From: Streptomyces sp. P3
GTDB lineage: Bacteria > Actinomycetota > Actinomycetes > Streptomycetales > Streptomycetaceae
Length of the DNA: 64,000 nt
Assembly: GCF_003032475.1 (NCBI RefSeq)
Contig: NZ_CP028369.1
Coordinates: 3,100,001-3,164,000 of the forward strand
Reading direction: 5' to 3'
Within the stretch, counting starts at the first letter, position 1. Every line of letters starts with the position of its first letter. Both the position numbers and the translations under genes were made by a program. This document shows positions 6,558 through 33,778 of this stretch, piece after piece. Below the pieces are notes generated by a model. The model was not told the origin of the DNA, searched no databases, and saw only the letters and a list, made by a program, of their open reading frames with translations.

Positions 6558-8960
6558 GTGGCCGCTCAGGCACAGCAGGAGACCGTGGTCGGATCGGTCG
6601 ACGAAGCCGCGCAGGATCCCAAGGGGGATTCGGTGCGGGACCGAGAGATCAGCGTCGAACAGGTACACCTCGACCGGGTGTACCGCCGCCTCGAGGAGAA
6701 GATCCACGAGGCCGAGTTCCTCATGAACGACGCGGCCCAGCGGGGCCAGGTCGGCACGCCCGGCGCCCTCGCCGAACGGGACGCCCAGGTCTTCCGGGCA
6801 GGCGTCCACCTCAACCGGCTCAACAACGAGTTCGAGGACTTCCTCTTCGGGCGGATCGACCTGCTGCTCGGCAGGGACGGCAGGAAGGGCCCGGACGGCG
6901 CCTACACCGCCGTCGAGCCCGCCGAGGGCGCCGTCCGCCCCGACAACACGGCCGACATCGCCGAGACGCTGCACATCGGCCGGATCGGCGTCCTCGACTC
7001 CGAGTACGCGCCGCTGGTCATCGACTGGCGGGCGCCCGCGGCCGCCCCGTTCTACCGCTCCACCCCCGTCGACCCGGGGCGCGTGGTGCGCCGCCGGGTC
7101 ATCCGCTCCAAGGGACGGCGCGTCCTCGGCGTCGAGGACGACCTGATGCGTCCCGAGCTGCGGGCGTCCCTGGACGGCGGCGAACTGCCCGTGATCGGCG
7201 ACGGCGCCCTCATGGCCGCCCTCGGCCAGGCCCGCGGCCACACCATGCGCGACATCGTCGCCTCCATCCAGGCCGAGCAGGACCTCGTCATCCGGGCCCC
7301 CGCCGCCTCCGTCACCTACGTCGAGGGCGGTCCGGGCACCGGGAAGACCGCCGTCGCGCTGCACCGGGCCGCCTATCTGCTCTACCAGGACCGGCGCCGG
7401 TACTCCGGCGGCATCCTGATCGTCTCGCCCACGCCCCTGCTGGTGGCCTACACCGAGGGTGTGCTCCCCTCCCTCGGCGAGGAGGGCCAGGTCGCCGTCC
7501 GCGCCATCGGCTCCCTCGTCGACGGCGCCGAGGCCACCGTGTACGACTCCCCGGCGGTGGCCCGGGCCAAGGGGTCGTACAGGATGCTGAAGGTGCTGCG
7601 CAAAGCCGCCCGCGGCGCCCTGGAGAACGGCGACGGCGGCCGCGGCGCGAGGCAGCAGACACAGCTCGGCTTCGACGAGAGCGACGAGCCGGACGAGACC
7701 TCCGCGCCCCCGGGCACGCCCGGCCGTCTGCGTGTCGTCGCGTTCGGCCGCCGGCTGGAGCTGGACGCCTCCGACCTGCAGCGGGTCCGGCACAGCGCGC
7801 TCAGCGGCACCGCCCCGGTGAACCTCCTGCGCCCCCGCGCCCGCAAGCTGCTCCTGGACGCCCTGTGGGAGCGCTCCGGCGCTTCCGGCCGGCACAGCGA
7901 CCCGGAGCTCGCCGCCGAGCTGCGCTCCTCCTTCGACGAGGACGTGAGCACCGAGGACGCCTTCATCGCCTTCCTCGACGCCTGGTGGCCCGAGCTCACC
8001 CCGCAGGCCGTCCTGCGGGCCATGGCCGACGAACGGCGGCTGGGCCGCTGGGCCCGCCGGATCCTCAACCCCGGCGAGGTCCGCAAGGTCGCCCGCTCCC
8101 TCAAGCGGGACGGGCTCTCCGTGCACGACATCGCCATGCTCGACGAGCTCCAGGCGATCCTCGGCGCCCCGGCCCGCCCGCGCAGGAGACGCGAGCTCGA
8201 CCCGCTGGACCAGCTCACCGGCCTCGAGGAGCTGATGCCGACGCGCGAGGAGACCCAGCGTGAGCGCGCCGAGCGGCTCGCGCAGGAGCGCACCGAGTAC
8301 GCGCACGTCATCGTCGACGAGGCACAGGACCTCACCCCCATGCAGTGGCGGATGGTCGGCCGTCGCGGCCGGCACGCCACCTGGACGGTCGTCGGCGACC
8401 CGGCCCAGTCCTCCTGGTCCGACCCCGACGAGGCCGCCGAGGCACGCGACGAGGCCCTCGGCACCCGCCCCCGCCGCCGTTTCCAGCTGACGGTGAACTA
8501 CCGCAACCCGGCCGAGATCGCCGAACTGGCCGCCAGGGTGCTGGCCCTGGCCATGCCCGGCGCCGAATCCCCGTCGGCGGTCAGGTCGACGGGTGTCGTG
8601 CCCCGCTTCACGGCCGCCCGCGGCTCCCTGGCGCAGACCGTGCGCGCGGAGGCCGAACGGCTCCTCGCGCGCGTGGACGGCACCGTCGGCGTCGTCGTCG
8701 CCATGAACCGCCGTGAGGAGGCCAGGCGCTGGCTGGCCGGCCTCGGGGACCGTGTGGTGGCGCTCGGCAGCCTGGAGGCCAAGGGCCTGGAGTACGACGC
8801 CACGGTCGTCGTCTCGCCGGCGGAGATCGCCGACGAGTCGCCGGCCGGGCTGCGGGTGCTGTACGTCGCCCTCACCCGGGCGACGCAGCAGCTCACGGTG
8901 GTGTCCGGGGAGCGGGACGAGCCGGACGCCCACGGGGTGCCGGACCTTCTGCGCGACTGA
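6558..8960 (+). CDS. UvrD/Rep-like superfamily 1 ATPase of the HelD/HelR type
   Basis: 800 residues. SF1 motifs in order: Walker A GGPGTGKT (Lys 263), DEAQDLTPMQW (Asp587-Glu588), VVGDPAQSSW, LTVNYRNPAEI, GSLEAKGLEYDATVVVSP and LYVALTRATQQLTVV. The N-terminal ~190 residues are a coiled coil (LDRVYRRLEEKIHEAEFL) as in HelD, which binds RNA polymerase and recycles stalled complexes. Actinobacterial relatives (HelR) protect polymerase from rifamycins. An actual DNA helicase role cannot be excluded. Starts at GTG 6558 behind AGAAGGGGG. It is separated from the anti-sigma gene by about 70 bp. Confidence 0.85.
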   Translation: MAAQAQQETVVGSVDEAAQDPKGDSVRDREISVEQVHLDRVYRRLEEKIHEAEFLMNDAAQRGQVGTPGALAERDAQVFRAGVHLNRLNNEFEDFLFGRIDLLLGRDGRKGPDGAYTAVEPAEGAVRPDNTADIAETLHIGRIGVLDSEYAPLVIDWRAPAAAPFYRSTPVDPGRVVRRRVIRSKGRRVLGVEDDLMRPELRASLDGGELPVIGDGALMAALGQARGHTMRDIVASIQAEQDLVIRAPAASVTYVEGGPGTGKTAVALHRAAYLLYQDRRRYSGGILIVSPTPLLVAYTEGVLPSLGEEGQVAVRAIGSLVDGAEATVYDSPAVARAKGSYRMLKVLRKAARGALENGDGGRGARQQTQLGFDESDEPDETSAPPGTPGRLRVVAFGRRLELDASDLQRVRHSALSGTAPVNLLRPRARKLLLDALWERSGASGRHSDPELAAELRSSFDEDVSTEDAFIAFLDAWWPELTPQAVLRAMADERRLGRWARRILNPGEVRKVARSLKRDGLSVHDIAMLDELQAILGAPARPRRRRELDPLDQLTGLEELMPTREETQRERAERLAQERTEYAHVIVDEAQDLTPMQWRMVGRRGRHATWTVVGDPAQSSWSDPDEAAEARDEALGTRPRRRFQLTVNYRNPAEIAELAARVLALAMPGAESPSAVRSTGVVPRFTAARGSLAQTVRAEAERLLARVDGTVGVVVAMNRREEARRWLAGLGDRVVALGSLEAKGLEYDATVVVSPAEIADESPAGLRVLYVALTRATQQLTVVSGERDEPDAHGVPDLLRD

Positions 8961-24092: not shown

Positions 24093-24136
24093 TGGAGACC
24101 GCGACGGGATTCGAACCCGTGTAACTCGCTTTGCAG
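24093..24136 (-). pseudogene. Displaced 3' end of the host tRNA-Cys gene (attL)
   Basis: Reading leftward, this is the 3' 44 nt of a tRNA-Cys: anticodon GCA, the 3' half of the anticodon stem (GCGAG), variable loop, a fully paired T arm (ACGGG-TTCGAAT-CCCGT), the acceptor strand CGCGGTC, T and encoded CCA. The 5' half is absent, replaced by element sequence. The 32 bp 24105-24136 are identical to 33716-33747. The acceptor strand would pair perfectly (one G-U) with the 5' half preserved at the right end, so this is the original host 3' end. Confidence 0.88.
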
Positions 24137-24149
24137 TCTGCTCACGCAG

Positions 24150-24177
24150 CCTGGGACTCGTACCGAGTCTGACCAGG
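24150..24177. repeat. Hairpin just inside attL
   Basis: CCTGG-GACTCG-TAC-CGAGTC-TGA-CCAGG: a 6-bp palindrome (24155-24169) extended by CCTGG/CCAGG. Its position 14 bp inside the attachment core suits an accessory site for integrase or excisionase, or a transcription stop. Confidence 0.4.
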
Positions 24178-24258
24178 CTCGTCCCCTTGGTCAAGCGGTT
24201 CAGGACATGGCAGGCGACTTACTCAACTCCGGGCACAGAGGGCCGGAACACAGAAGAA

Positions 24259-24288
24259 CCCCGTAGGCACCAGGGGCGCTGTACGGGG
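24259..24288 (-). terminator. Terminator of the serine recombinase gene
   Basis: On the minus strand CCCCGTA and TACGGGG (24282-24288 / 24259-24265) flank a loop and are followed by TTCTTCT. It lies 25 bp past the recombinase stop. Confidence 0.6.
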
Positions 24289-24313
24289 CTCTGAGGGGCT
24301 GTCAGGGAGCGGT

Positions 24314-24916
24314 TCAGCTCTGGCTCTCGTCGTGCACCTGGAGAGCCTGAGAGATGGCACCGACGGACGGGTTACGGGTTTCTCCGCTCCCGGTCTTGTA
24401 GGTGAGGTGCGGCTGAATCTGCCGGATGGTGAATCCCTTGTCCCGGAGCGCCACAGCCTGAGCCGTAAGAGCCTCAGTCATGACCGGACGGCGACCACCA
24501 ACCCGCCCGTTCTTCCGGGCACTCTCAAGGCCGTTCTTGGTCTTCTTCACGATGTCCCGTCGCCGGTCCTCTGCCAGAGCGAAAGCAAGGTCGAGAATCA
24601 GGCTGCGCTCTGTGTGCTCACCCTTGGCGATACCGTCCAGGACCTTTACGGCTACGCCACGCTCGAAAAGATCAGTCAGCATCAGCAGTCCCTCAAGGAG
24701 GTTCCGGCCGAGCCGGTCAACCTCTTGGACCGTGAGCATGTCTCCCTCTCGCATGTAGTCGAGAGCGGAGAGGAGTCCGGGGCGTTCCGAGACGGTGAGC
24801 TTCCCAGAGATCTTCTCCTCAAAGACCTTCACGCAACCGGCGTCGTTCAACGCATCGTGCTGTCGAGCCGTCTCCTGCTTGTCCGTGGAAACCCTCACGA
24901 GTCCGACGAGTGCCAT
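24314..24916 (-). CDS. Small serine recombinase (resolvase/invertase type)
   Basis: 200 residues. The catalytic domain begins MALVGLVRVSTDKQE with the nucleophilic Ser at about position 10. It continues with RPGLLSALDYMREGDMLTVQ and EVDRLGRN, then LILDLAFALAEDRRRDIV. A C-terminal Hin-like helix-turn-helix region includes GGRRPVMTEALTAQAVAL. The ATG at 24916 is set by GGAGGGGG five bases upstream. Size fits a resolvase or invertase, not a large serine integrase. It might resolve multimers of the excised circle. A cluster of TTGATGAACA repeats lies directly upstream and may be its binding site. Confidence 0.88.
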   Translation of the reverse strand: MALVGLVRVSTDKQETARQHDALNDAGCVKVFEEKISGKLTVSERPGLLSALDYMREGDMLTVQEVDRLGRNLLEGLLMLTDLFERGVAVKVLDGIAKGEHTERSLILDLAFALAEDRRRDIVKKTKNGLESARKNGRVGGRRPVMTEALTAQAVALRDKGFTIRQIQPHLTYKTGSGETRNPSVGAISQALQVHDESQS

Positions 24917-24930
24917 GGGAACCCCCTCCG

Positions 24931-25064
24931 TGTTCATCAAACGCACCGGCCAACAAGATGAACAGTACCAGATAGATGAACGGGTTGATGAACAGATTCG
25001 GGCGCTCCATGGGTCAAGTCGGCAGGTGTCGGCTCAGGTTCACCAGACGATCGTTTGATGAACA
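24931..25064. repeat. Cluster of five TTGATGAACA-like repeats
   Basis: Copies at 24931-24940 (inverted), 24955-24964, 24973-24982, 24985-24994 and 25055-25064, consensus WWGATGAACR. They fill the space between the leftward serine recombinase and the rightward genes. Candidates are a res-like recombination site, an operator, or origin iterons. Confidence 0.75.
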
Positions 25065-25164
25065 GTCGCCCGATGGCTCCGAACAGCACTCTTGCTACAA
25101 ACCTTGAGACAATTGGAGGGAGGGGGAGGCGCACCAGGTAGACGAGACAGACAGGAGATTGATC

Positions 25165-25362
25165 ATGAGCATGGGACCAGGGATGCCGGTGAATATGGAC
25201 GCGATCGACGCAATGGCAGCGACGGCGACGGCCGGAGCGAGTCAGGGAGATCAGACGCTAGGGAACCTTCAACAAGGCTTCCTGAACTCGGGAGGTGGCC
25301 GTACGGCAAGCTTTGGCCAGGGAGCCCTAGAGGGGCGCGCAGTGCTCGCACTGACCATGTGA
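25165..25362 (+). CDS. Small Gly/Ala/Met-rich protein of unknown function
   Basis: 65 residues starting MSMGPGMPVNMDAIDAMAAT, preceded by AGGAG with 7-base spacing. It has no cysteines, membrane helix or recognised motif. It is the first rightward gene after the repeat cluster. G/C content is closer to the host than the following genes. Could be real on the strength of the ribosome site alone. Confidence 0.45.
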   Translation: MSMGPGMPVNMDAIDAMAATATAGASQGDQTLGNLQQGFLNSGGGRTASFGQGALEGRAVLALTM

Positions 25363-25418
25363 CACACATTCAGACCCTTGCAGGTCAAGGGGTTTGTGTA
25401 ACAATTTCATGACGAAAA

Positions 25419-25454
25419 GATCACGAGTTTATTACATAATTACAGTACGTGATC
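25419..25454. repeat. Inverted repeat around an A/T-rich core
   Basis: GATCACG (25419-25425) and CGTGATC (25448-25454) flank a 22-bp core that is almost all A/T (centre TTTATTACATAATTACAG). Such A/T density is exceptional here. It could be an operator, a promoter or a DNA-unwinding element. Confidence 0.5.
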
Positions 25455-25466
25455 GAGAGGCATTAA

Positions 25467-25517
25467 AGAGCCCCGACTAATCTACGGACAGTGATAGTCC
25501 CTGGTGGTCGGGGCTCT
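25467..25517. terminator. Stem-loop before the small-gene array
   Basis: AGAGCCCCGAC (25467-25477) pairs perfectly with GTCGGGGCTCT (25507-25517). The 29-base loop contains a second small stem (GGAC...GTCC). It separates the 65-residue gene from the array and probably terminates transcription. Confidence 0.6.
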
Positions 25518-25554
25518 GTGCTGTCCGGGCTCAAACGAAGATGCTGTGCATTCA

Positions 25555-25563
25555 TGGGATAAT
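25555..25563 (+). promoter_or_regulatory. Putative -10 element TGGGATAAT (first copy)
   Basis: TGGGATAAT occurs here and again at 27192-27200, each 45-57 bp before the first gene of a rightward cluster. GATAAT fits a -10 hexamer with a TG-type extension. No good -35 is present, so an element-specific activator may be needed. Confidence 0.45.
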
Positions 25564-25619
25564 GGAGTCATAGAAGGGGACGGCCGTAGAGAGACAGACA
25601 CGACCACCCCGGAGTAGCA

Positions 25620-25820
25620 ATGAGCACAACCCTTGAATACCTGCCTATCTGGCAGGTACGAGACCTCTCTTTCGCAGCCAAGATGACTTGGCTTGCCTTC
25701 CATGCCGGAATCCCGGTGCCTGATACGGCATGGCGCGACTACCTATCCAAGATGGGTCAGCCGTACGTACCCAAGGAAGCCTGCCTAGCTGAGCTAGAGG
25801 TTTCCGGATGGTTGGCGTAA
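25620..25820 (+). CDS. Small element-encoded protein, possible winged-helix fold
   Basis: 66 residues starting MSTTLEYLPIWQVRDLSFAA, with CCGGAG before the ATG. The layout (KMTWLAFHAG, then SKMGQPYVPKEACLAELEVS and a terminal GWL) recalls the helix-helix-'aLexxGWL' pattern of replication-type winged helices, but it stops where the wing would begin. First gene of the 25.6-26.95 kb array. Function unknown. Confidence 0.65.
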   Translation: MSTTLEYLPIWQVRDLSFAAKMTWLAFHAGIPVPDTAWRDYLSKMGQPYVPKEACLAELEVSGWLA

Positions 25821-25831
25821 GGGGTGCAGAG

Positions 25832-26020
25832 ATGACCCCGAAAGCCTACGCCGTACTCAGCCTCATGCAATGGCACCGCGAACGAGGAGAAACCGCCTCC
25901 GTGGACGTCCTGGCAGAGGCAACGCGTATGACGTTCCCGGAGCTGGGACAGTGCCTCAGAGAGGTAAGCAAGCACGTTACAGAGACCCTATGGCCGGACG
26001 GCCCAAGAACAGCAGCATAG
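25832..26020 (+). CDS. Small helical protein of unknown function
   Basis: 62 residues from ATG 25832 (MTPKAYAVLSLMQWHRERGE), set by AAGGGG nine bases upstream. An ATG at 25808 would overlap the previous gene. The helix-turn-helix-like order (SVDVLAEATRM, FPELGQCLREVSKHV) suggests a compact DNA-binding fold. It starts 11 bp after the preceding stop, so it is in the same operon. Confidence 0.6.
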   Translation: MTPKAYAVLSLMQWHRERGETASVDVLAEATRMTFPELGQCLREVSKHVTETLWPDGPRTAA

Positions 26021-26033
26021 AAGAAAGGAAGCG

Positions 26034-26288
26034 ATGGACGAGACAGACGTAATCGAGCTGAGACGAGAGGCCAGGGTAAATGCCAGAGCGAACATGCTTT
26101 GGCTGTACCTGAACTCACTTCCCGTAGAAGAGGAACTGAGATTTTCGCAACCCCAGCTTTGTGAAGCTCTAGGTCTGGGCACAGACGGTCGGAGTCTCAG
26201 AGAGGCTGTGACAGCACTGGAAGACAGAGGAAATCTCGTTGTGGACCGTACGCACAAGCCACACCGATACACAATCAATCCACACTGA
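26034..26288 (+). CDS. Small winged-helix protein
   Basis: 84 residues. FSQPQLCEALGLGTDGRSLR is followed by EAVTALEDRGNLVVDRTH: two helices, a recognition helix and a 'LEDRGNLVV' wing, the usual pattern of winged-helix replication or regulatory proteins. It starts behind AAGGAAG, 13 bp after the previous gene. DNA binding is inferred from the pattern; partner unknown. Confidence 0.65.
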   Translation: MDETDVIELRREARVNARANMLWLYLNSLPVEEELRFSQPQLCEALGLGTDGRSLREAVTALEDRGNLVVDRTHKPHRYTINPH

Positions 26289-26303
26289 ACTAGGAGAAGA
26301 AAT

Positions 26304-26708
26304 ATGACCAACAACGCATTCAGTTTCGGAGCCACGGAAACCGACTTTTGGGCTCGACAGATGGACCCGAAGTATCAGGCGCAGCGCGCGGCAGAGAAGG
26401 AAGCCAAGGATGCCGAACAGAGAAGAATGATTCAGGCTTACCAGGCAGAGCAGCAGCGTCAAGCTGTCATGTCCTCTGCCGGACCAGCCATTTTGGATCT
26501 GATCCAGGGATACCTAAACAGAAACACGCCTGCCGTTGCTCGCAACGTAGAGGCTGACTTTGTGGAGCGTCTACCGGGCACTACTCCCGCTGACTTCCGT
26601 ACGGCACTTGAGTATTTGAAGCAGGCCGGAAGTGTGCATGAGCTTGTCTCAAGTACTCAAGGTTTCATGGGGGAAAAGACCACGCACCTGTACCCACTGG
26701 GGGACTAA
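26304..26708 (+). CDS. Coiled-coil plus helical-domain protein of unknown function
   Basis: 134 residues, behind AGGAG. Residues 25-55 are a charged, Gln-rich coiled coil (QRAAEKEAKDAEQRRMIQAY). The C-terminal part (FVERLPGTTPADFRTALEYL, KQAGSVHEL) again has a winged-helix-like cadence. The stop overlaps the start of the next gene (TAATG), showing translational coupling. Confidence 0.65.
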   Translation: MTNNAFSFGATETDFWARQMDPKYQAQRAAEKEAKDAEQRRMIQAYQAEQQRQAVMSSAGPAILDLIQGYLNRNTPAVARNVEADFVERLPGTTPADFRTALEYLKQAGSVHELVSSTQGFMGEKTTHLYPLGD

Positions 26709-26953
26709 TGGCAGAACCAGACTTCCCAGTCATCGCATTCTTCACTTACCTGCGTGATCTCGGGGAGCCGTATCCAAGGGAATCATTCGAGAGGGAGTGG
26801 CCGGGCATCGACTACGACACAACCCATAGTGAGGCTCTGGAGAAACTGAGGGATGCGGAACTGTCCATCGAACCAGGACAAGCTTTCACTTACGACATGC
26901 CTAGGGGAGTTCTGTTTACTCAGAGAAGCGCGAGAATCATTCGGATTGATTAA
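26708..26953 (+). CDS. Small acidic protein of unknown function
   Basis: 81 residues, coupled to the preceding gene through a TAATG overlap. Motifs: FPVIAFFTYLRDLGEPYPRE, then HSEALEKLRDAELSIEPG and a C-terminal beta-rich stretch. Net acidic. Last gene of the first array, followed by a 20-bp terminator. Confidence 0.65.
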   Translation: MAEPDFPVIAFFTYLRDLGEPYPRESFEREWPGIDYDTTHSEALEKLRDAELSIEPGQAFTYDMPRGVLFTQRSARIIRID

Positions 26954-26960
26954 GGCGAAT

Positions 26961-27017
26961 ACAGAAGAACCCTCAAATCCTAGGAAGGGGGATACCTGGA
27001 TTTGAGGGTTCTTCTGT
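26961..27017. terminator. Long perfect terminator hairpin
   Basis: 20-bp perfect arms at 26961-26980 and 26998-27017 (ACAGAAGAACCCTCAAATCC on the left), with a short secondary stem in the loop. It ends the 25.6-26.95 kb operon. The A-rich left end also gives a T-rich exit for rightward transcription. Confidence 0.85.
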
Positions 27018-27191
27018 GCGTTGAACATCAAGCGCTGAGAAGTGCCGGAAACATAGACAGTCGGTACGGTTTCATGCGTCGAATAATGGACCGAGTAGCG
27101 AGCAATTCACTAAGAACTAGGATACATCAATCGAGTTCTTTGATGAAACTCACGGGGAGTTCTTGCCGGAAACCGAAATGAACCTTACTTC

Positions 27192-27200
27192 TGGGATAAT
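27192..27200 (+). promoter_or_regulatory. Putative -10 element TGGGATAAT (second copy)
   Basis: Same nonamer as at 25555-25563, 45 bp before the ATG of the 109-residue gene and behind about 150 bp of A/T-rich, gene-free DNA. Confidence 0.45.
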
Positions 27201-27244
27201 AGTCTCAGGAGCAGCAACGACCAATCAAGGAGAAATTAAGGAGC

Positions 27245-27574
27245 ATGATTCAGAACACGAAGATTCTCTACAGAAATGACTTGAGCCTAGGCGCGCGAGT
27301 TACTTACTACCTGATTCAGGATGAGGACACCATGCGCTATGAGCGAGCGCACAACCACGGCGACGGAGGAAATCCGCTAGAGCCATTGATTCTCACCAAT
27401 GAGGAGTTGGCCAAGAGAGTTGGTAAGTCTCTGTACTCCGTAAGGAACTACCTAGACGAACTCAAGGCGGCTGGTCTCATCAAGACTTCGATTCGCAATG
27501 CCGGTACTCACTTTAGGTTCGCCCAAGGATTCAATCCCGAGAATGACGCGTACTGGAATGAGCTTTGGGCATAA
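27245..27574 (+). CDS. Winged-helix protein, replication-initiator-like
   Basis: 109 residues with AGGAG upstream. It has the layout of HTH_36-type replication proteins: LSLGARVTYYLIQDED, then ILTNEELAKRVGKSLYSVRN and YLDELKAAGLIKTS with the wing NAGTHFRFAQ. It consists of that domain alone. It may be a copy-control or regulatory paralogue of the initiator-like protein encoded 140 bp downstream. It has its own promoter candidate and terminator. Confidence 0.7.
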   Translation: MIQNTKILYRNDLSLGARVTYYLIQDEDTMRYERAHNHGDGGNPLEPLILTNEELAKRVGKSLYSVRNYLDELKAAGLIKTSIRNAGTHFRFAQGFNPENDAYWNELWA

Positions 27575-27577
27575 GAA

Positions 27578-27610
27578 AACCCCCACAGGAGGATACGGCC
27601 TGTGAGGGTT
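27578..27610. terminator. Terminator after the 109-residue gene
   Basis: AACCC-C-CACAGG (27578-27589) pairs with CCTGTG-A-GGGTT (27599-27610), with one internal mismatch and a 9-base loop. Confidence 0.6.
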
Positions 27611-27632
27611 CCCTGGAAGGAGGACAGAAGAG

Positions 27633-27791
27633 ATGAGCGCGCCAAACCTTATCGAAAACCTCTGTACCGATCCAAACCATGCAAGTACTAGAACCTACGT
27701 AAAGGATATCAGCTATGCCAGGCAGACCCGATTTCACAGACCGCAAGATCCATGTATTGGAGAACCCGACGGTCAGATACAAGGAAGGTGA
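27633..27791 (+). CDS. Possible 52-residue protein overlapping the initiator-like gene
   Basis: ATG 27633 follows GGAGG at 9-base spacing, a better ribosome site than that of the next gene. The frame (MSAPNLIENLCTDPNHASTR...) runs 77 bases into the 350-residue gene in another phase. It may be a leader used for translational coupling or a real small protein. No homology recognised. Confidence 0.4.
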   Translation: MSAPNLIENLCTDPNHASTRTYVKDISYARQTRFHRPQDPCIGEPDGQIQGR

Positions 27792-28767
27792 GTTCGAGAC
27801 GTACGCAAAGGCACTACGCCAGGCAATCAAGAGAGGTGAAATCTCCCACCAGGCAGGATGGCTATGGCTAACCATCTCAGAGCTAGCAGGAGACGACAGA
27901 GAGGCTTACTCGGGCCAGGAGTACCTAGCCAATGAACTCAATACCTCTGTGCCCTCTATTAAGCGTTGGACCAAGGAACTAGAAGAGACAGGGTGGCTGG
28001 TCAAGCAGAACCGTACGGCTACCTCTAACAAGTACTGGACTGCCATTCCTGCTGAGGCTAACGCGCTTCACCAGGACTACACACCACGCCTAACTACGGT
28101 TGGCCAGGAGTTGAGCACCCGCAAGCGTTCCACCAGAGCTAAGAGCACTCCTGCCGAGACTCATAAGCTCACTGGTGATCCTATGGAGAATGAGCCTATG
28201 GACAGCGTTCATAAGCTCATGGATGAGCCTATGCATAAGCTCACTGGTGATCCTATCGATAAGCTCACCAGCGATCCTCTAACAAGACAGAGCATTAAAG
28301 AGACAGAGCATAACCATACAGAACTAGCAAGTTACCAGAGAGTAACTAAATGCCTAGAGGATAACCAGCGATCTCCTCTGGTAGAGACTAAGTCTCCTCT
28401 GGTCATCCCTGGTGAAGTACCTATGGAAGAAATCGGTATCTCTCCTCTGGTAGACGATAGTCGCGTCTCCGACGCTCCTGTCTCTCCCTCTGGTGAGACT
28501 AAGAAGTCTCGTGCTTCCTTTGTTGTGAAGAAGAGTGCAGCTCCTTCGAAGAAGACAGGTACTTCCCACGTACCCGCGCCCTCTCTGGGCGCTACACGTC
28601 CTTACCAGGGCGCTCCACAGCTTTCCAGAACGGAACAGCACCATCTGAACATTCGTCTACAGGGACAGCAGAATATTAAGGCTGCACGCCTAAAGGAAGA
28701 GGAGACCGCCAGACGTAAGGCTGAGTTCGCGGCTTACGTGAGCGCAGAGACCATGGAAGGAGTCTGA
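27715..28767 (+). CDS. Replication-initiator-like protein with internal iterons
   Basis: 350 residues. Residues 1-115 form a winged-helix domain: HQAGWLWLTISELAGDDREA, then YLANELNTSVPSIKRWTKEL and ETGWLVKQNRTATSNKYW. This matches the helix-turn-helix domain seen in phage and plasmid initiators. Residues 140-260 are hydrophilic and contain 8-residue repeats (HKLTGDPM, HKLMDEPM, HKLTGDPI, DKLTSDPL) encoded by 24-bp tandem DNA repeats. The C-terminus is basic (about 270-350). The arrangement is like phage lambda O, whose gene contains the origin iterons (known comparison). Function as initiator is inferred. Confidence 0.7.
   Translation: MPGRPDFTDRKIHVLENPTVRYKEGEFETYAKALRQAIKRGEISHQAGWLWLTISELAGDDREAYSGQEYLANELNTSVPSIKRWTKELEETGWLVKQNRTATSNKYWTAIPAEANALHQDYTPRLTTVGQELSTRKRSTRAKSTPAETHKLTGDPMENEPMDSVHKLMDEPMHKLTGDPIDKLTSDPLTRQSIKETEHNHTELASYQRVTKCLEDNQRSPLVETKSPLVIPGEVPMEEIGISPLVDDSRVSDAPVSPSGETKKSRASFVVKKSAAPSKKTGTSHVPAPSLGATRPYQGAPQLSRTEQHHLNIRLQGQQNIKAARLKEEETARRKAEFAAYVSAETMEGV
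28161..28280 (+). repeat. 24-bp iteron-like tandem repeats inside the initiator-like gene
   Basis: Units begin at 28161, 28209, 28233 and 28257, with one degenerate 24-bp unit at 28185. Consensus CATAAGCTCACTGGTGATCC. The phase is exactly 24 bp. An A/T-rich stretch (about 28281-28350) follows, then a second cluster of TCTCCTCTGGT repeats (about 28372-28495). Confidence 0.85.
28371..28495 (+). repeat. TCTCCTCTGGT repeat cluster
   Basis: TCTCCTCTGG occurs at about 28372, 28393 and 28441, and a TCTCCCTCTGGTGAGACT variant ends the cluster near 28499. The encoded repeat is SPLV. It may be a second set of protein-binding sites in a putative origin, or simply a repetitive linker. Confidence 0.6.
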
Positions 28768-28769
28768 GT

Positions 28770-29306
28770 ATGACCAAGACATGTAAGAACTGTCAGGAGA
28801 AAAAGCCACTCGACAGATTCACCACGGACGGCAGAACCAGGGATGGACTCCGTAAGGTCTGTGAGGATTGCCGTACGGCTGTGCGCCCCTCTGGTGCCTC
28901 TGTACTGGCTCCCGTAGAGCCAGAGACCAGGGAGCGGCAGAACGGCTCTCAGACAGCCACTGAGACCCGTAGAAAGGCTCTGGCCGACTACGAGAACACC
29001 TTTGCCGACATCGTGAAGGGGTTGGACACCCTGGACACTCTGAATGCCCCTTGGCCATTCGACGACTACTCAATGACAGAGGAGCAGCTAGGCGCAGCAG
29101 ACGGAATTCTGATTGCCCTATTGCGTGGAGACCTATACGGCTCCCACTACCTGATGGGTCAGGTTTGCAAGACTGCCGAGGATGCGGCCCGTCTCCTTTC
29201 TCACTTGACTGAGATTCTGATTGAGTTCGGTGTTGAAGATAAGGAAAAGCTCATTCGGGTGACACAGAACGTAATCAATAGCAGGGTAACCCGAGAAGCA
29301 GCATAG
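28770..29306 (+). CDS. Zinc-ribbon protein following the initiator-like gene
   Basis: 178 residues. The N-terminal metal site is Cys5-x2-Cys8 ... Cys31-x2-Cys34 (KTCKNCQEKKPLDRF, LRKVCEDCR), a small zinc ribbon common in actinophage proteins. The remaining 140 residues are helical and acidic (LADYENTFADIVKGLDTLDT). It starts two bases after the initiator-like stop, so it is in the same operon. By position it could be a helicase loader or replication accessory factor; this is only inference. Confidence 0.65.
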   Translation: MTKTCKNCQEKKPLDRFTTDGRTRDGLRKVCEDCRTAVRPSGASVLAPVEPETRERQNGSQTATETRRKALADYENTFADIVKGLDTLDTLNAPWPFDDYSMTEEQLGAADGILIALLRGDLYGSHYLMGQVCKTAEDAARLLSHLTEILIEFGVEDKEKLIRVTQNVINSRVTREAA

Positions 29307-29319
29307 TCGGAAACAGGGA

Positions 29320-29348
29320 AAGTCCAGGGATATGCATTCCCTGGACTT
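29320..29348. terminator. Terminator of the initiator operon
   Basis: AAGTCCAGGGA (29320-29330) and TCCCTGGACTT (29338-29348) are perfect 11-bp arms with a 7-base loop, followed by CTCTATTG. Confidence 0.75.
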
Positions 29349-29577
29349 CTCTATTGAATAGTGAATGGGGATCGCCGGCGTGGTACGCAATTCTCATTCT
29401 TTCGCAATTGAGCAAGGCTACTGAATTACTAATTCCATGACTATCCGGCTGTGGTGCCTGGTTTTCTGGGTAGTTCCGTAGGTATCTCGCTTTAGATGAG
29501 TTACTGCTCTTGATGAGAGTTCCGAGTTCCAGGGCAAAATTTCCGAGAACCCGGATTCCCTCACTACTCCTGTGGAG

Positions 29578-29823
29578 TTACTTGTTTTCCGGGTAGTGCA
29601 TGCTCATTACCCGATAGGTCTTCACAACCATCTTAGGCATCTTGTACAGCGATAGAATCAAACACTTCGCTCCTGACTGGTTGGTTGCAGGCTCGATAGC
29701 CAAGACTTCAACGGTCTTTCCGTTCTGCAACTTCAGGTAATCGCCTGCCTTCAACTTCTTTGCTGGCTTACGTGGTGGATTTTTAATGTCGTTCCCCTCC
29801 TCTCCTTGACTTCCCTTCATCAT
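29578..29823 (-). CDS. Small basic protein with an SH3/KOW-like core
   Basis: 81 residues from ATG 29823 (start uncertain; the frame opens at GTG 29871). PRKPAKKLKAGDYLKLQNG and TVEVLAIEPATNQSGAKCLI suggest a small beta-barrel behind a Lys-rich N-terminus. Leftward, opposite to the preceding array. Function not recognised. Confidence 0.55.
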   Translation of the reverse strand: MMKGSQGEEGNDIKNPPRKPAKKLKAGDYLKLQNGKTVEVLAIEPATNQSGAKCLILSLYKMPKMVVKTYRVMSMHYPENK

Positions 29824-29922
29824 CTCACCGACCACTGACAAACAGACATGGGCGATTCCGCTTACGGGCACAGAAGAGCGCCCGACTCCGACAGGGGAAC
29901 CGAGCGCTTATCTGTGGGTCGC

Positions 29923-30288
29923 CTACTGTGCTCCCAGCACCTTCACCTCACACGTTCGTACCGTTGCGTCTCCGGGACGACGACCGATGACCTTGAAGGT
30001 GAGGGACTTTCCAGGCTGGATTGCATCTGTGGTCGTCTGCCCCATGTCCACCTGTCTCCCCTCCCCGTTGAACCAGTAGAGCTGAATCACGTAGGCCGTG
30101 ACGTCCGGGAAGTCATTGGTTGCCTTGAGTTCCATAGTGGTTCCCTGGTCAGTGCCACAGTGAGTGACCTTTACCGGCTCATCCGATTCACCGCTCTTTT
30201 CGTCCGTGCTCCCGCATCCCGCTATGGCGACGCTGGTAAACAGAGCGATTCCCACCAGGTGGGTAAGCGTCCTCTTCTCGTTCCTCAT
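29923..30288 (-). CDS. Secreted lipoprotein of unknown function
   Basis: 121 residues. It has a lipoprotein signal peptide: basic MRNEKR start, a hydrophobic core, and the lipobox VAIAGC with Cys25. The mature part is an Ig-like beta domain (TAYVIQLYWFNGEGRQVDMG) with two further cysteines. ATG 30288 follows GGAAGA. A surface lipoprotein on a mobile element could give surface or superinfection exclusion, but nothing here proves it. Confidence 0.75.
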   Translation of the reverse strand: MRNEKRTLTHLVGIALFTSVAIAGCGSTDEKSGESDEPVKVTHCGTDQGTTMELKATNDFPDVTAYVIQLYWFNGEGRQVDMGQTTTDAIQPGKSLTFKVIGRRPGDATVRTCEVKVLGAQ

Positions 30289-30334
30289 GTTCTCTTCCGA
30301 TCCTGGGGCTGTGTACAGCCGTCTGCTGACGTAA

Positions 30335-30367
30335 GAGAGCCCCCGGCGGGGGAATCCGGGGACTCTC
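30335..30367 (-). terminator. Terminator of the DUF6415 operon
   Basis: GAGAG-C-CCCCGG (30335-30346) pairs with CCGGGG-A-CTCTC (30356-30367) with one mismatch. It lies just past the stop of the leftward two-gene operon. Confidence 0.55.
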
Positions 30368-30392
30368 GGTCTTATGGCCCTCTCAGGGGCTC

Positions 30393-30623
30393 TCAGGAGT
30401 CCTTACGCCACTCGGCATCAGGTGACGTCAGCTTGGCCACCAGGACACGAGCCAGAATGCGAATGGGAGCCTCATCCGGCTGCACCAGGTGAGCGTGTTC
30501 ACGGTGCGCCCATACCGTCCAACCGGGGCCGGAATTGCCGTGTTCGTAGGCGACGGGTACCGCGTCCTCTGGCTCTGTGATCAGTCCATCGCAGTACCGG
30601 CAGACGTGAAGGGTCTGAGTCAC
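30393..30623 (-). CDS. Small protein with a Cys-x2-Cys motif
   Basis: 76 residues from GTG 30623 (VTQTLHVCRYCDGLITEPED), set by GGGGG seven bases upstream and by a GTGA overlap with the stop of the DUF6415 gene. HVCRYC and two later His residues may bind metal. Codon use is G/C-rich, like host genes. Function unknown. Confidence 0.65.
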   Translation of the reverse strand: MTQTLHVCRYCDGLITEPEDAVPVAYEHGNSGPGWTVWAHREHAHLVQPDEAPIRILARVLVAKLTSPDAEWRKDS

Positions 30624-31003
30624 GAATGACCCCCGAGATTCACGTAGTGGTCGGCAAGGGCTCTGACAGACCGTGCGAGCCTCTGAGCGTGCGCTACGCC
30701 TGCCGGAAGCGTCCCGTTGGAGGGTTCCAGCCTCAGCCGCATACGGGCCTCTCCAATACACGCCAGAGCGCATGCGCGCGGTACGTCATCCTTGGGGAGC
30801 TTTCCGGCCGCTGTCTCTACGTCAGGGATGGCCACCATGATCATTCCCCGGAGTAGGAGAGTCAGGGTCTCGACCTCTTCCAGAGACGGGAGTTCGGCAT
30901 CCTCCGAGAGCAGACGTGCGGCCGTCTCGCGCATCGCCTCCACATCGATGGGGATGTGTTCAGGCTTGCTCTCGGTGCCACTGTCGGCGGTACGGTGCGC
31001 CAT
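30620..31003 (-). CDS. DUF6415 family protein
   Basis: 127 residues. The family pattern is clear: MRETAARLLSEDAELPSLEE, then VETLTLLLRGMIMVAIPDVE, DDVPRACALACIGEARMRL and AQRLARSVRALADHY. These small proteins are common in Streptomyces, often next to XRE regulators. Their role is unknown despite the database label 'natural product biosynthesis'. ATG 31003 follows GGAG. It is divergent from the XRE gene across a 145-bp operator-like region. Confidence 0.8.
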   Translation of the reverse strand: MAHRTADSGTESKPEHIPIDVEAMRETAARLLSEDAELPSLEEVETLTLLLRGMIMVAIPDVETAAGKLPKDDVPRACALACIGEARMRLRLEPSNGTLPAGVAHAQRLARSVRALADHYVNLGGHS

Positions 31004-31097
31004 GTCGGCTCCTGTAGTCGGCCCACCCGATCACCCTGCATGTGGTCGGGTGGTTTTGCGTCTGTCCACACAACCGATGCGCCGATGCCATAGGGCA

Positions 31098-31136
31098 GTT
31101 GACCAGCGTTGACTACGATGGACGTCAACAGTCAAC
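31098..31136. promoter_or_regulatory. Operator-like GTTGAC/GTCAAC cluster
   Basis: Two GTTGAC copies (31098-31103, 31108-31113) face two GTCAAC copies (31124-31129, 31131-31136) in the space between the divergent DUF6415 and XRE genes. This layout fits a binding site for the XRE regulator. Confidence 0.6.
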
Positions 31137-31148
31137 GGGAGCTGCACC

Positions 31149-32300
31149 ATGATCGACTTTGGGTCTGAGGTACGGACGGCACTCAAGGCACAGGGGAAGA
31201 GCCTCAGAGGTGCAGCCAGGGAATTGCACTATGACGTTGCCTATCTGAGTCGCGTACTCAATGGGAAACAGGCTCCCTCAGCCGAGTTGACCCAAGCCGT
31301 TAACGAATACCTCGGTCTGTCCCTGACTGTGGAAGACAGCGGCTCTCATGACGATGAGATGGATGCATGGGAGTTGGCTCGACGCGTACAGGCAAGCGAC
31401 GTAGGAAACGCCACCCTTGAGCGGCTAGAGCGTGCCTTTGATGGTCTGGCTATGGCATACCCGAAAGCCAAGCCGGAAGACCTCTTGCGCCACGTACGTA
31501 AGCACACTGCTTATGTGGGGAAGTTGCTCGACAGCAAGAAGACCCTTTCCGAGCACCGACGCTTGTTGGTCATCGGGGGATGGATGTCCCTCTTGGGCGC
31601 GACAGTCCATATCGACCTGATGCAAGACGATGCGGCTACGGCTCGATTGGAGACGGCCGCAACGCTCGCAAGGGAAGCCGGGCATCCTGAGATTGAGGCA
31701 TGGTGCTACGAGACTGAGGCTTGGAGACTCCTCACCGATGGGGATTACGTCCAAGCCGTTGACCTCTCCCGAGCCGCACAGGAGATAGCTCCCGCTGGTT
31801 CCTCTGGGCTCATTCAGGCGACCGCACAAGAGGGAAGAGCACACGCACGGCTAGGGAACGGCGCAGAGACGTATTCGGCTATCGAGCGGGTACAGGCTCT
31901 CTCTGCTGCTATCGGCGCTCCCGATACGCCAGAGCACCACTACCGCTACGACCCTGCAAAGGCTCTGTCCTACACGGCTACAACGCTTGCATGGCTTGGG
32001 GATGCGGCAGCAGAGCCGTACGCCAGGGAAGTAATCAAGAGACTGAGTCCCGGTGAGGATGTAAGCCAATGGCCACGACGTGTGGCTTCCGCGAATATCG
32101 ACCTAGCCCTAGTACTCCTCAAAGAAGACCGGCTAGACGAAGCGTGCGACTCGGCACAGAAAGCCATTCTGTCCGGCCGTGTGGTCCCCTCCAATCACTG
32201 GCGCGCCCTGGAAGTCGTCAAGGCTGTTGAGGCTCGACAGCTACCGGAGAGCGCAGACCTGCGAGAGGCATACCAGGGGCTCAAGGCCATTGAGCCGTAG
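31149..32300 (+). CDS. XRE-family regulator with TPR-like C-terminal domain
   Basis: 383 residues. The N-terminal helix-turn-helix (LRGAARELHYDVAYLSRVLN, GKQAPSAEL) is of the Cro/C1 type. The remaining ~310 residues are helical repeats (AATLAREAGHPEIEAWCYET, ALSYTATTLAWLGDAAAEPY) like the TPR sensory domains of Streptomyces and Gram-positive quorum regulators. GGGAGC precedes ATG 31149. It probably controls the divergent operon and element maintenance. G/C content is intermediate. Confidence 0.85.
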   Translation: MIDFGSEVRTALKAQGKSLRGAARELHYDVAYLSRVLNGKQAPSAELTQAVNEYLGLSLTVEDSGSHDDEMDAWELARRVQASDVGNATLERLERAFDGLAMAYPKAKPEDLLRHVRKHTAYVGKLLDSKKTLSEHRRLLVIGGWMSLLGATVHIDLMQDDAATARLETAATLAREAGHPEIEAWCYETEAWRLLTDGDYVQAVDLSRAAQEIAPAGSSGLIQATAQEGRAHARLGNGAETYSAIERVQALSAAIGAPDTPEHHYRYDPAKALSYTATTLAWLGDAAAEPYAREVIKRLSPGEDVSQWPRRVASANIDLALVLLKEDRLDEACDSAQKAILSGRVVPSNHWRALEVVKAVEARQLPESADLREAYQGLKAIEP

Positions 32301-32418
32301 GGCTACTGCCCAAACCTCTGGAAGCCCTACGCACTCGAAAGACCGGGGTAGCCCGGTCGGAGAGTCGAACGTTGAAGGTAGGGGGTCGTTTTTCCCGAAC
32401 AACTCGACAGAAAAGCAC

Positions 32419-32458
32419 AGAGCCCAGGTTTCCCCTCTGCGGGAGTTACCTGGGCTCT
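32419..32458. terminator. Bidirectional terminator between the XRE and integrase genes
   Basis: AGAGCCCAGGT (32419-32429) and ACCTGGGCTCT (32448-32458) are perfect 11-bp arms between two convergent genes. Confidence 0.75.
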
Positions 32459-32471
32459 TGTGTGTCTTGGG

Positions 32472-33557
32472 TCAGTACCTGTCTCCCAAGCCCTGTACGG
32501 CGTTCACAGCCCTTGTGCTGGCCATGTCCGCCCCGTACCTGCGGAGCATTGCGGGAGACTTCCAACCCCGGATAGCCATGATGTGTTCTCCCGAGACTCC
32601 AGCCGCTTTGAGGTCATCCGCCCACGTGTGACAGAACGAGTGAGGAGCAACCTGTGCAGGGTCGTAACCCGCATCCTTTGCCCGCTTCTTCACCATGACG
32701 TACAGCCCCCTGTACTGGAGTGCTCCCCGTCCCCGCATCCCGAGCCAGAGGAACGGGGTTGAGTCCGCCATGGCGTGAGCGGAGCGCACTCGGAGATACC
32801 GAGCTAGAGCCTTTGCCGTCTTGGGCTGGAGAGGGACCACCCGAGCGTCAATGCTGTTCCTGTCTCCCTTCAACGGAATGACCAGCATGGTTCGCGCGGC
32901 TAGGTCCAAGTCTTCTACCCGGAGGTTCAGCAACTCCTCTGCCCTCAGCCCCTCTGTGAGGACACGGACGATTGCGTGATCCCGAACGGTCTGGAAGTCA
33001 CGGACTTTGGGAGAGCCGTTCCCGGTGACCTTGAGTACGTCGGTCACAAACTCTTCAGAGAGCGTCTTGGGCTTACCGAGAGGGGGAGCGGCGTAGCGGT
33101 GAAACTTGGGGGAGTCGTACGGGTTGGTGTGGTCGTACTCCTCTGCCAGATAGATGAACAGCGGCCGGAGGTTCCTTTGAAGGGTGTTGGTCCCTCCCGT
33201 GTATCCGCCCTTGCCGTCCTGAGACTTCGGGACGTCATGGACTCGGTAGTACCAGCGAAAGAAGCGGTTCAGGGTGGCCACATCACACGTGGTGAAGTCC
33301 CCTTCTACTCCGCTCTCGGTCATCCAGTTGTGCAGAGCGACACCAGCGAACTTGTACGCGTTGATGGTCTTGCGCTGGTACGGCCGTCCGAACCTGTTGG
33401 TGATCGTGCTCAGGTGAAGGTCGAGTTCATCGAGCATGGCTGTGCGCGCATCCGTGGCTGAGCGTCCGTCAAGGACTCTGAGAGGTGCTGTCGGCTGTGT
33501 CGGCTCAGCGCTCTGAGGCTTCCTGAGCGCGCTCCGGAGAGGTGTACGTGCTGGCAC
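32472..33557 (-). CDS. int: Tyrosine-recombinase integrase with Arg II replaced by Cys
   Basis: 361 residues. The core-binding domain spans about 40-150, the catalytic domain about 165-360. Arg I is in VLTEGLRAEELLNLRVEDLD. The HxxR box reads PHSFCHTWADDL, so the second catalytic arginine is Cys309 (codon TGT, one transition from CGT). The His/Trp and Tyr motif is IRGWKSPAMLRRYGADM. GTG 33557 follows GGGAG. It lies next to attR, as is standard for tRNA-targeting elements. Loss of Arg II usually abolishes recombination, so the element may be trapped unless another copy or enzyme acts. Confidence 0.85.
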   Translation of the reverse strand: MPARTPLRSALRKPQSAEPTQPTAPLRVLDGRSATDARTAMLDELDLHLSTITNRFGRPYQRKTINAYKFAGVALHNWMTESGVEGDFTTCDVATLNRFFRWYYRVHDVPKSQDGKGGYTGGTNTLQRNLRPLFIYLAEEYDHTNPYDSPKFHRYAAPPLGKPKTLSEEFVTDVLKVTGNGSPKVRDFQTVRDHAIVRVLTEGLRAEELLNLRVEDLDLAARTMLVIPLKGDRNSIDARVVPLQPKTAKALARYLRVRSAHAMADSTPFLWLGMRGRGALQYRGLYVMVKKRAKDAGYDPAQVAPHSFCHTWADDLKAAGVSGEHIMAIRGWKSPAMLRRYGADMASTRAVNAVQGLGDRY

Positions 33558-33592
33558 TGTGGGCTCCCTTGCGCCGTGTGGCGCTCTGTGGA

Positions 33593-33694
33593 GCTAGGTC
33601 AGTCCGTAGTGGACCAAGCAACTGACCTAGCCCCGTCTTGGACGGGAGTCCCTTGCTGTGAGAGCTGTGTCTGACCTTGAAACATGCAGGTCAG
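33593..33694. repeat. CTGACCT repeats between integrase and attR
   Basis: Four copies of CTGACCT or its complement: 33597-33603, 33622-33628, 33671-33677 and 33688-33694. The first two form 11-bp arms (GCTAGGTCAGT/ACTGACCTAGC, 33593-33631), the last two 7-bp arms. Their place between int and the core site suits arm-type integrase sites. Confidence 0.6.
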
Positions 33695-33703
33695 AGACTG
33701 TCT

Positions 33704-33778
33704 TGGAGGCCGTGGCGGGATTCGAACCCGTGTAACTCGCTTTGCAGGCGAGTCCCTGAGCCTCTCGGGCACACGGTC
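33704..33778 (-). tRNA. tRNA-Cys (GCA), rebuilt by element insertion
   Basis: 75 nt including encoded CCA. The anticodon stem CTCGC/GCGAG surrounds CTGCAAA (anticodon GCA). The 5' half is host DNA, the 3' half comes from the element (attR core 33716-33747). Acceptor strands GACCGTG and CACGGCC pair except A2-C71, and the T stem ACGGG/CCCGC has an A49-C65 mismatch. The host remnant at attL (acceptor CGCGGTC, T stem CCCGT) would pair at both positions. Confidence 0.88.
33716..33747. other. attR core of the tRNA-Cys element
   Basis: 32 bp identical to 24105-24136, covering the tRNA from the anticodon loop to the T-arm loop. Beyond the core the two copies diverge on both sides, as expected for attachment sites. 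Confidence 0.88.

Follow-up and report, generated by a model that had tools for sequence, protein, structure and literature searches.

According to the available sections of one review, many mobile elements, possibly most of them, need helpers, and knowledge of them comes from few elements of few species (PMC11389934). Among the closest described systems, the phage-inducible chromosomal minimalist islands (PICMIs) are presented in the accessible part of PMC10803314 as carrying three core proteins and no capsid genes, and as being packaged as concatemers. Actinomycete integrative and conjugative elements (AICEs) can be frequent, one population having an average of four in each genome (PMC9513070, in the part available), and an AICE survey, as far as its excerpt goes, left out fragments with two components or fewer and treated elements that lack tra or rep either as remnants or as possibly mobilizable (PMC3218068). 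In the titles and abstract openings of the papers found by our searches, the Streptomyces satellites named are those of the Mulch and Flayer systems, which encode encapsidation genes. In this study, a 64,000-nucleotide stretch of Streptomyces sp. P3 (NZ_CP028369.1, positions 3,100,001 to 3,164,000; hereafter the window), which is 3.10–3.16 Mb of a 9.85-Mb single-contig genome (G000), was analyzed for a compact 9.6-kb element lying in tRNA-Cys.

The results indicate that it is probably an integrative element that excises, replicates as a circle, re-integrates and needs a helper to move between cells, with a phage helper being somewhat more likely than a conjugative one. Its family provides a compact Streptomyces case in which parts can be assigned from the sequence to integration, replication, and the resolution of multimers, while the transport step is missing. 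No description of this family was found in the open-licence PubMed Central literature, as judged from titles and abstract openings.

Results

Integration of the Element Into tRNA-Cys

The element is bounded by an exact 32-bp direct repeat (24105–24136 and 33716–33747) within tRNA-Cys, just as an earlier note made from the sequence alone had placed it. The sole tRNA-Cys of the window predicted by ARAGORN, tRNA-Cys (GCA) at 33704–33778 on the minus strand, is complete and contains attR, while the left repeat copy comprises only a tRNA-Cys 3′ part of 44 nt (attL, 24093–24136, minus strand). When the pre-integration tRNA-Cys was rebuilt from the present 5′ half and the left copy, the acceptor stem was paired at 7/7 positions with one G-U, whereas the present tRNA-Cys carries an A2-C71 mismatch, indicating that the left copy is the displaced original 3′ end and that the present 3′ end was brought by the element. 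This mismatch in the resident tRNA-Cys, created by the insertion, might affect tRNA function.

The DNA of the element is foreign to the Streptomyces chromosome. The lower G+C content noticed earlier was measured as 56.5% for the whole element and 52.7% for its core (25100–29900), vs. 72.1% outside, and in 1-kb windows it falls to 50–63% between the repeat copies. The G+C content of third codon positions was 51.8–64.8% in the eight plus-strand core genes (25620–28770), vs. 92.7 and 91.5% in two flank genes. At the right end, the tyrosine integrase that the note had recognized was found at 32472–33557 on the minus strand (PF00589, E 3.4e-18); it has 361 aa and no internal stop, and the element is intact as judged by reading frames.

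Further, a search with the tRNA and the right flank gave some match in all 41 genomes and returned 30 loci, own included. The clearest unoccupied tRNA-Cys sites, which the earlier note had proposed to look for, were L051, L053, and L059, where the left-flank gene is found on one side of the tRNA and the right-flank MFS gene on the other, each no more than about 0.6 kb away, with no element-sized insert between the two. In its own genome the element is single-copy, as the second listed match proved to be an internal palindrome. Integration of the element into tRNA-Cys is well supported by these results.

A Family With a Conserved Core and Exchanged Integrases

The integrase was found at E ≤ 1e-40 in 14 of 391 other genomes of the genus. 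In 11 of these 14 neighborhoods a tRNA-Cys, tRNA-Arg or tRNA-Ser was present within the fetched stretch, and direct repeats enclosed an element of 4.5–15 kb in 11/14. L020 (S. hyaluromycini, G274), whose integrase is 93% identical, is a full-length relative of the window element and also lies in tRNA-Cys, and L033/L034 (S. blattellae, G022) carries the core at a tRNA-Arg. The remaining 12 integrase loci share little beyond the integrase and represent at least two further kinds of compact element, with small exceptions: L024 also has DUF6415, L027 and L028 have a distant XRE protein, and some share att-side DNA.

The 134-aa product of the gene at 26304–26708 (plus strand) was used as a family marker. 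It is represented by 55 clusters, own included, and 29/29 NCBI-named rows are Streptomyces. The marker was found in 4/392 genomes of the genus, own included, and at four loci in genome_contigs, which together make six distinct loci, i.e., the window, L020, L034, L035 (S. cavernae), L036 (S. gelaticus), and L042 (G363), the last three being added by this search; L020/L037 and L033/L034/L043 were each counted as one locus. A search of the class, covering 394 genomes, added L101 and L102 from two genomes that belong to another family, and a partial, doubtful match in G450 (E 7e-4) was excluded from the relatives.

The core order, namely the genes starting at 25159, 25620, 25808, 26034, 26304, and 26708 and the initiator, with the gene at 29578 convergent, is largely kept. 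The gene at 25808 was recognized only in the window, L034, and L035, that at 28770 only in the window, L020, and L036, and that at 27245 only in the window and L036. Around this core the integrase has been exchanged: a tyrosine integrase is present in the window and L020 (tRNA-Cys) and in L034 (tRNA-Arg), and a large serine integrase in L035, L042, and L036. L035 and L042 occupy the same chromosomal place, by a gene that by eye resembles a cold-shock gene, where two 12-bp repeats are candidates for the att core. In L035 (10001–10672) and in the metagenome protein P0020, the genes corresponding to 26304 and 26708 form one fused frame, which supports a joint function of the two.

A Phage-Type Initiator With an Origin-Like Array Inside Its Gene

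The earlier note saw neither FtsK nor Rep in the element. The absence of FtsK and of an AICE-type Rep agrees with the searches described below, but the element does encode an initiator, one of phage type whose gene contains an origin-like array. The 350-aa protein encoded at 27715–28767 (plus strand) is a replication initiator of the phage O/DnaD type with an HTH_36 domain (PF13730, E 1.4e-7), and it matches PHROG 270 “replication initiation protein” (E 9e-8), PHROG 428 (E 5.8e-7), and PHROG 186, a DnaD-like helicase loader (E 2.5e-5). All five initiators tested (window, L020, L035, L036, and L042) match phage PHROG families, which speaks for a phage satellite. This protein is rare, as only seven proteins, itself included, were obtained from 5.8 billion sequences in a search limited to those sharing short words, and only itself plus one weak match among 392 genomes of the genus.

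Within the initiator gene of the window, four copies of an approximately 24-bp repeat with spacings of 48, 24, and 24 form an array at 28162–28286 (plus strand), the putative origin iterons, and the lowest-G+C 60 bp of the gene (28292–28351, plus strand, 37%), a putative unwinding element, lies directly after it. L020, L034, and L036 carry 21-bp arrays of a different sequence in the corresponding part of the initiator gene. In all five genes with an array, the lowest-G+C 60 bp overlaps or directly follows it. When codon order was shuffled 300 times per gene, none of the shuffles reached the array score in the window, L020, L034, L036, or L042 (0/300 each), and the scores of the five array-bearing genes were 0.69–0.83 vs. 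0.50–0.54 in six other family genes.

The codon usage of the relatives with 21-bp arrays was then compared at identical amino acids in three pairs among L020, L034, and L036. Identical codons were found at 26/27, 18/21, and 17/20 positions in the array region, to which a small upstream margin and 30 nt downstream had been added by choice, vs. 105/186, 87/165, and 82/161 outside it (Fisher, 2.5e-5, 4.4e-3, and 3.9e-3, respectively). The best-conserved codon windows of a sliding-window analysis fell on the array in 3/3 pairs. Replication is thereby supported by sequence-level evidence of selection on the DNA in relatives.

Alternatively, the repeats could be a low-complexity linker at the protein level instead of an origin, and the element a non-replicating island. 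A linker would suit the in-frame position of the repeats, whose translation is a repeated peptide, as also in P0002–P0004. However, synonymous codons are most strongly conserved at the array in three relatives, and the 21- and 24-bp repeats sit in otherwise different initiators, so that a linker appears improbable. Some results count against the origin itself: the L035 initiator has no array, as 202/300 codon shuffles reach its score; the L042 array is weak, its score of 0.69 being below 0.73, the 99th percentile of a control with G+C-rich flank DNA, which is less clean than the codon shuffles and reached a maximum of 1.0; and the three initiators of the codon test are homologous, so that the pairs are not independent, while the window initiator, having no DNA relative, stands outside the test.

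As for the tail of the gene, the DNA at 28356–28535 is 68–72% identical to the tail of the otherwise different L042 initiator, and the proteins P0005–P0007 share the tail of the window initiator with other N termini, i.e., the initiators are mosaic.

A Small Serine Recombinase With a res-Like Site

The serine recombinase reported at the left end is present (24314–24946, minus strand; PF00239, E 7.9e-29), with a start probably at 24916 by comparison with L020, but it is a putative resolvase of the small resolvase/invertase type (PHROG 125 DNA invertase, E 6.6e-46) and not a second integrase. The protein has 210 aa, no PF07508, and 84% identity with that of L020. Whole copies were found in 4/6 loci (window, L020, L042, and L036), of which L042 and L036 also have a large serine integrase, and L102 has the small recombinase alongside both the marker and a large serine integrase. 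In L035, only residues 100–184 of the L042 protein were matched by a remnant at 8555–8809, a C-terminal piece 92% identical to the L042 copy, and no small serine recombinase was seen in the examined parts of L034, which is split over two contigs. Since the enzyme occurs with either integrase class, it was taken as belonging to the replication/maintenance core.

Upstream of the recombinase gene, a motif scan identified a res-like site at 24931–25065, composed of TTCATCAAACG / CGTTTGATGAA and GATGAACAG repeats in a layout like that of a res site. Two exact copies of TTCATCAAACG occur upstream of the recombinase in the window and three in L020, in both orientations, and no other exact copy was found in the five elements scanned. 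Multimer resolution by the small serine recombinase is plausible.

An 84-bp Non-coding Module

An 84-bp non-coding module of the form GGCTACTGCC-N-AAGACC-N-GGTAGGGG (32301–32384, plus strand), a candidate cis-acting site, was revealed by blastn against the relatives and by pattern scans. It is kept in L020, L035, and L042 despite a different position among the genes, and among 103 sequences the strict pattern occurred in these and the window, otherwise only in overlapping copies of them. In 362 genomes of the genus, it was present only in G000, G274, and G022, which are exactly the marker carriers in that draw; G363 lies outside the draw and has the module in its L042. The reversed pattern, used as a control, gave no match in the 362 genomes. 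In G022, the module was located on a different contig, close to its end. A 46-bp stretch identical to the 3′ part of the tRNA-Arg lies about 140 bp away, so that the module probably marks the other end of the contig-split element.

Because the module is kept with serine as well as tyrosine integrases, a role as an integrase arm site is unlikely, and the same conservation would suit a site recognized by a satellite’s phage helper. The RNA fold of the module is weak, with a double change in 2/14 pairs. A partial module pattern was found in 37 IMG/VR contigs, which may be chance. The module may be a packaging or transfer site, and it gives a direct handle on the transport step.

Transfer Functions and Possible Helpers

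The open reading frames (ORFs) of the element were compared with Pfam (19 ORFs), PHROGs (16), NCBIfam (10), and PADLOC (10). No relaxase, FtsK, terminase, capsid, tail or lysis family was matched in the Pfam and PHROG searches, nor was a full set of virion genes present, in keeping with the earlier statement that prophage structural genes are not seen. For an AICE-type Rep, the Pfam models PF12307 (RepAM) and PF09250 (Prim-Pol) were covered, and neither was matched among the 19 ORFs. The Pfam search that matched no relaxase was made with methods to which oriT and clt are beyond recognition. In the four carrier genomes, no FtsK (PF01580) was found inside the elements, all matches being outside them, and a phmmer search of 20 loci with 19 queries, a weaker check with self-matches as positive controls, also found none.

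An AICE remnant that has lost tra and a canonical rep was considered in view of these results. A tRNA site with a tyrosine integrase is found in many AICEs, remnants without tra have been described (PMC3218068 and PMC9513070, in the parts available), and L035 itself shows decay. However, at all six loci the core proteins are still encoded by open frames, in largely the same order, with integrases exchanged, the origin-like array is constrained as DNA in three loci, and PF12307, PF09250, and FtsK were not matched in the element. A remnant was therefore rejected as very improbable.

Conjugal mobilization, in which TraB of a resident AICE or plasmid would move the circle as double-stranded DNA via a clt-like site, perhaps the 84-bp module, is rather unlikely. 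For it, a single FtsK-like protein suffices for Streptomyces conjugation according to the available part of PMC5704250, and FtsK-family proteins of 435–581 aa, a size compatible with AICE TraB, occur in G000, G274, and G363. At L101, the distant locus of another family, the marker occurs with an initiator-like gene whose product resembles HTH_36 and has repeated peptides, and with a neighboring gene for a 744-aa protein that weakly matches HerA/DUF87, the HTH_36 and HerA/DUF87 matches being below cut-off; L101 may be a conjugative relative. However, G022 has FtsK-family frames of 937 and at least 1345 aa only, and the octamer of the pSVH1 TraB-recognition sequence (GACCCGGA) is absent from all six elements. 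Moreover, the module occurs in no further genome of the 362 although AICEs can be frequent (four per genome in the part of PMC9513070 cited above), so that probably few or no AICEs in these genomes carry it.

A phage satellite, in which a virulent or temperate Streptomyces phage would induce excision and replication and package the DNA, possibly as a concatemer resolved to monomers after entry, is the subtype we prefer, though tentatively. In addition to the initiators and the module, the small size and gene content resemble those of PICMIs (PMC10803314, available sections), and the low G+C is like that of BE-cluster Streptomyces phages and satellites, with about 49.5% in the helper phages and 46.7 and 51.0% in their satellites (PMC10690885, part available; 46.7% being MiniFlayer), which is suggestive only. 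However, no phage match was obtained by blastn of 24150–32100 or, across 50,697 phage records, by tblastn of the marker and initiator, and the best MiniFlayer match to an element protein had E 0.029. IMG/VR contained no relative of the integrase, initiator or marker, so that homologous full prophages, which the earlier note would have taken as refuting a distinct element, were not encountered in these collections with the proteins searched. No terminase, capsid or packaging gene was matched in the element, and neither phage-shared packaging signals nor proteins were found in searches that short cos sites and small proteins outside them could escape.

Among plasmids, tblastn of the marker and initiator also gave nothing, and blastn of 24150–32100 gave 13 records with short matches to the recombinase, DUF6415, and the stretch under XRE. 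HK97-type capsid genes are present in G000 (two) and G022 (one), and the PF03354 terminase was found in none of the four carrier genomes, which is uninformative, as two of them carry such capsid genes. Neither the FtsK nor the capsid distribution points to one resident helper. The two HK97-type capsid genes of G000, at 8.78 and 8.82 Mb, are about 41 kb apart and probably belong to prophages.

Remaining Genes and Related Compact Elements

The left part of the core encodes small conserved proteins on the plus strand. These are a 67-aa protein with a TTG start (25159–25362; matches in L020 and L034, and via L034 in L035 and L042), a 66-aa protein (25620–25820; alignment A5, no Pfam or PHROG match), a 70-aa protein possibly with a helix-turn-helix (HTH) motif (25808–26020; homologues in L034 and L035, PHROG 11503 HTH only at E 0.15), and an 84-aa protein that is winged-helix-like by weak matches (26034–26288; alignment A3 of six elements, PHROG initiator matches only at E 0.38–0.4). 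The marker is followed by the 81-aa protein to which it is fused in L035 and P0020 (26708–26953; alignment A4), and 3′ of this gene a perfect 20-bp inverted repeat with a 17-nt loop (26961–27017) is probably a terminator. A 109-aa winged-helix protein (27245–27574; PF13412, E 3.1e-5; PHROG 270, E 5.9e-5; homologue in L036) precedes the initiator, and a 178-aa protein with a zinc-ribbon/HNH-like N terminus follows it (28770–29306; PHROG 1035 endonuclease VII, E 7.2e-7 at residues 1–38; homologues in L020 and L036).

On the minus strand are genes for a conserved, predicted SH3/KOW-like small beta-barrel protein (29578–29871, start uncertain, perhaps 29823; alignments A6 and A7), a putative FxLYD-like lipoprotein that is possibly cargo (29923–30288; NF038353, E 0.0015, below cut-off; homologues in L020 and L033/L034), and a DUF6415 protein (30620–31003; PF19979, E 5e-32). 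An NsdA-like XRE-TPR regulator is encoded on the plus strand at 31149–32300 (PF01381, E 1.3e-7; NF053720, E 1.5e-32, over cut-off). PADLOC matched none of the ten proteins searched, and in Rfam the tRNA alone was above cut-off over the element.

The AlphaFold model of the marker (predicted local distance difference test, pLDDT, 76) suggests a long helix plus a winged-helix domain. Judged by their titles, many of its best PDB hits are winged-helix proteins, but neither the PDB nor the viral structure library gave a match at E ≤ 0.001. The model of the 29578 protein (pLDDT 65) is a small beta barrel with eIF5A/EF-P as top PDB matches (best E 5.8e-3). Both folds are to be read as fold-level hints only. 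A “head scaffolding” PHROG match of the marker (E 0.3) was treated as noise, and a profile match between A4 and A2 was rejected as homology, as it arose only because A2 contains the fusion protein P0020. Profile comparisons of A3 with A2 and with the 27245 protein gave probabilities of 1.9 and 7.5, respectively.

Two further kinds of element carry a related integrase. The second kind (L021, L022, L029, L030, L031, and L032) is also compact and low in G+C, with 8–9 kb in four, 4.5 kb in L029, and L032 unbounded. Its genes encode an XRE protein, GIY-YIG nuclease-like and Phd antitoxin-like proteins (by eye), a DUF2637-like membrane protein (below cut-off in L021), and an AAA_25 ATPase in L030 with a relative in L032; no FtsK was found among them. 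The third kind (L023–L028) has 12–15 kb where bounded, L026 being unbounded, and encodes AAA_25 (over cut-off in L025, L026, and L027) or D5-like (L023) proteins. L024 also encodes a tape-measure-like protein, as known from phages, which has 987 aa and an SLT domain.

Discussion

Of the three possibilities raised in the earlier note, a phage satellite, a minimal mobilizable element or a new class, a compact integrative element without recognizable transfer or virion genes was borne out and is backed by relatives, and the choice stays between the first two. In the mechanism that we propose, the tyrosine integrase would recombine attL with attR, whose anatomy is seen in tRNA-Cys. The O/DnaD-like initiator would bind the 24-bp iterons within its own gene and open the adjacent A+T-rich stretch, where a helicase of the host or helper would be loaded. 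The small serine recombinase would then act on the res-like site and resolve multimers or a concatemer to monomers, while the XRE-TPR protein and the small winged-helix-like proteins may regulate excision and replication. Finally, a helper would supply transport by recognizing a cis site, perhaps the 84-bp module.

In its most specific form, this proposal describes an undescribed lineage of chromosomally integrated Streptomyces phage satellites without virion genes, with an integrase open to exchange, an origin of the lambda type inside the initiator gene, a resolvase reducing packaged concatemers to monomers, small winged-helix proteins, and a private 84-bp packaging site; as a whole we regard it as possible but doubtful. 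If phage-borne, the family would represent an integrated satellite type without structural genes in actinobacteria.

Several observations weigh against the proposal. Excision, replication, and transfer are deduced from sequence. The L035 initiator is on the strand opposite to its core, and with this orientation, the missing array, and the remnant recombinase, the S. cavernae element may be decaying. The res-like motif was not found at the recombinases of L042, L035, and L036, and the strict module is absent from L036, L101, and L102 and from IMG/VR. For most of the small proteins, a winged-helix fold is backed weakly or not at all by Pfam, PHROG, and profile comparisons. As for a helper, searches with the module, 29300–29600, and capsid genes yielded no candidate, BLAST of the module and of 29300–29600 gave no significant phage or plasmid match, and two of the four carriers (G274 and G363) have no resident HK97-type capsid gene.

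Compared with known systems, the element is like AICEs of the pSAM2 type in its tRNA att site, its tyrosine integrase, and its own replication, as suggested by its sequence, and an integrase with att sites, by which AICEs are recognized, is present. It differs from them in having no FtsK/TraB and an initiator that is not of the RepAM or Prim-Pol type and was not recognized as RepSA. Decayed cis-mobilizable elements (CIMEs) have lost their integration genes, whereas the integrase here is full-length and uninterrupted. The MiniFlayer/MulchRoom satellites of Streptomyces BE phages share the host genus and low G+C, but MiniFlayer has its own terminase, portal, and capsid genes, while the element has no terminase or capsid match.

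In phage lambda, the origin lies within the initiator gene as a set of iterons, with an A+T-rich region after them. The element is like this O/ori module in having in-gene iterons and then an A+T-rich stretch, the sequences being compared by description only, but no P-like helicase loader was recognized in it. PICMIs, also compared by description, are likewise small, with an integrase, a replication gene, a regulator, and no capsid genes (PMC10803314, available sections); however, their integration site is adjacent to fis and they rely on AlpA and a primase, whereas the element has an O/DnaD-like initiator, a resolvase, and several small proteins, and its family uses tRNA or other sites. The element is accordingly filed among the helper-dependent integrative elements, as a variant of these.

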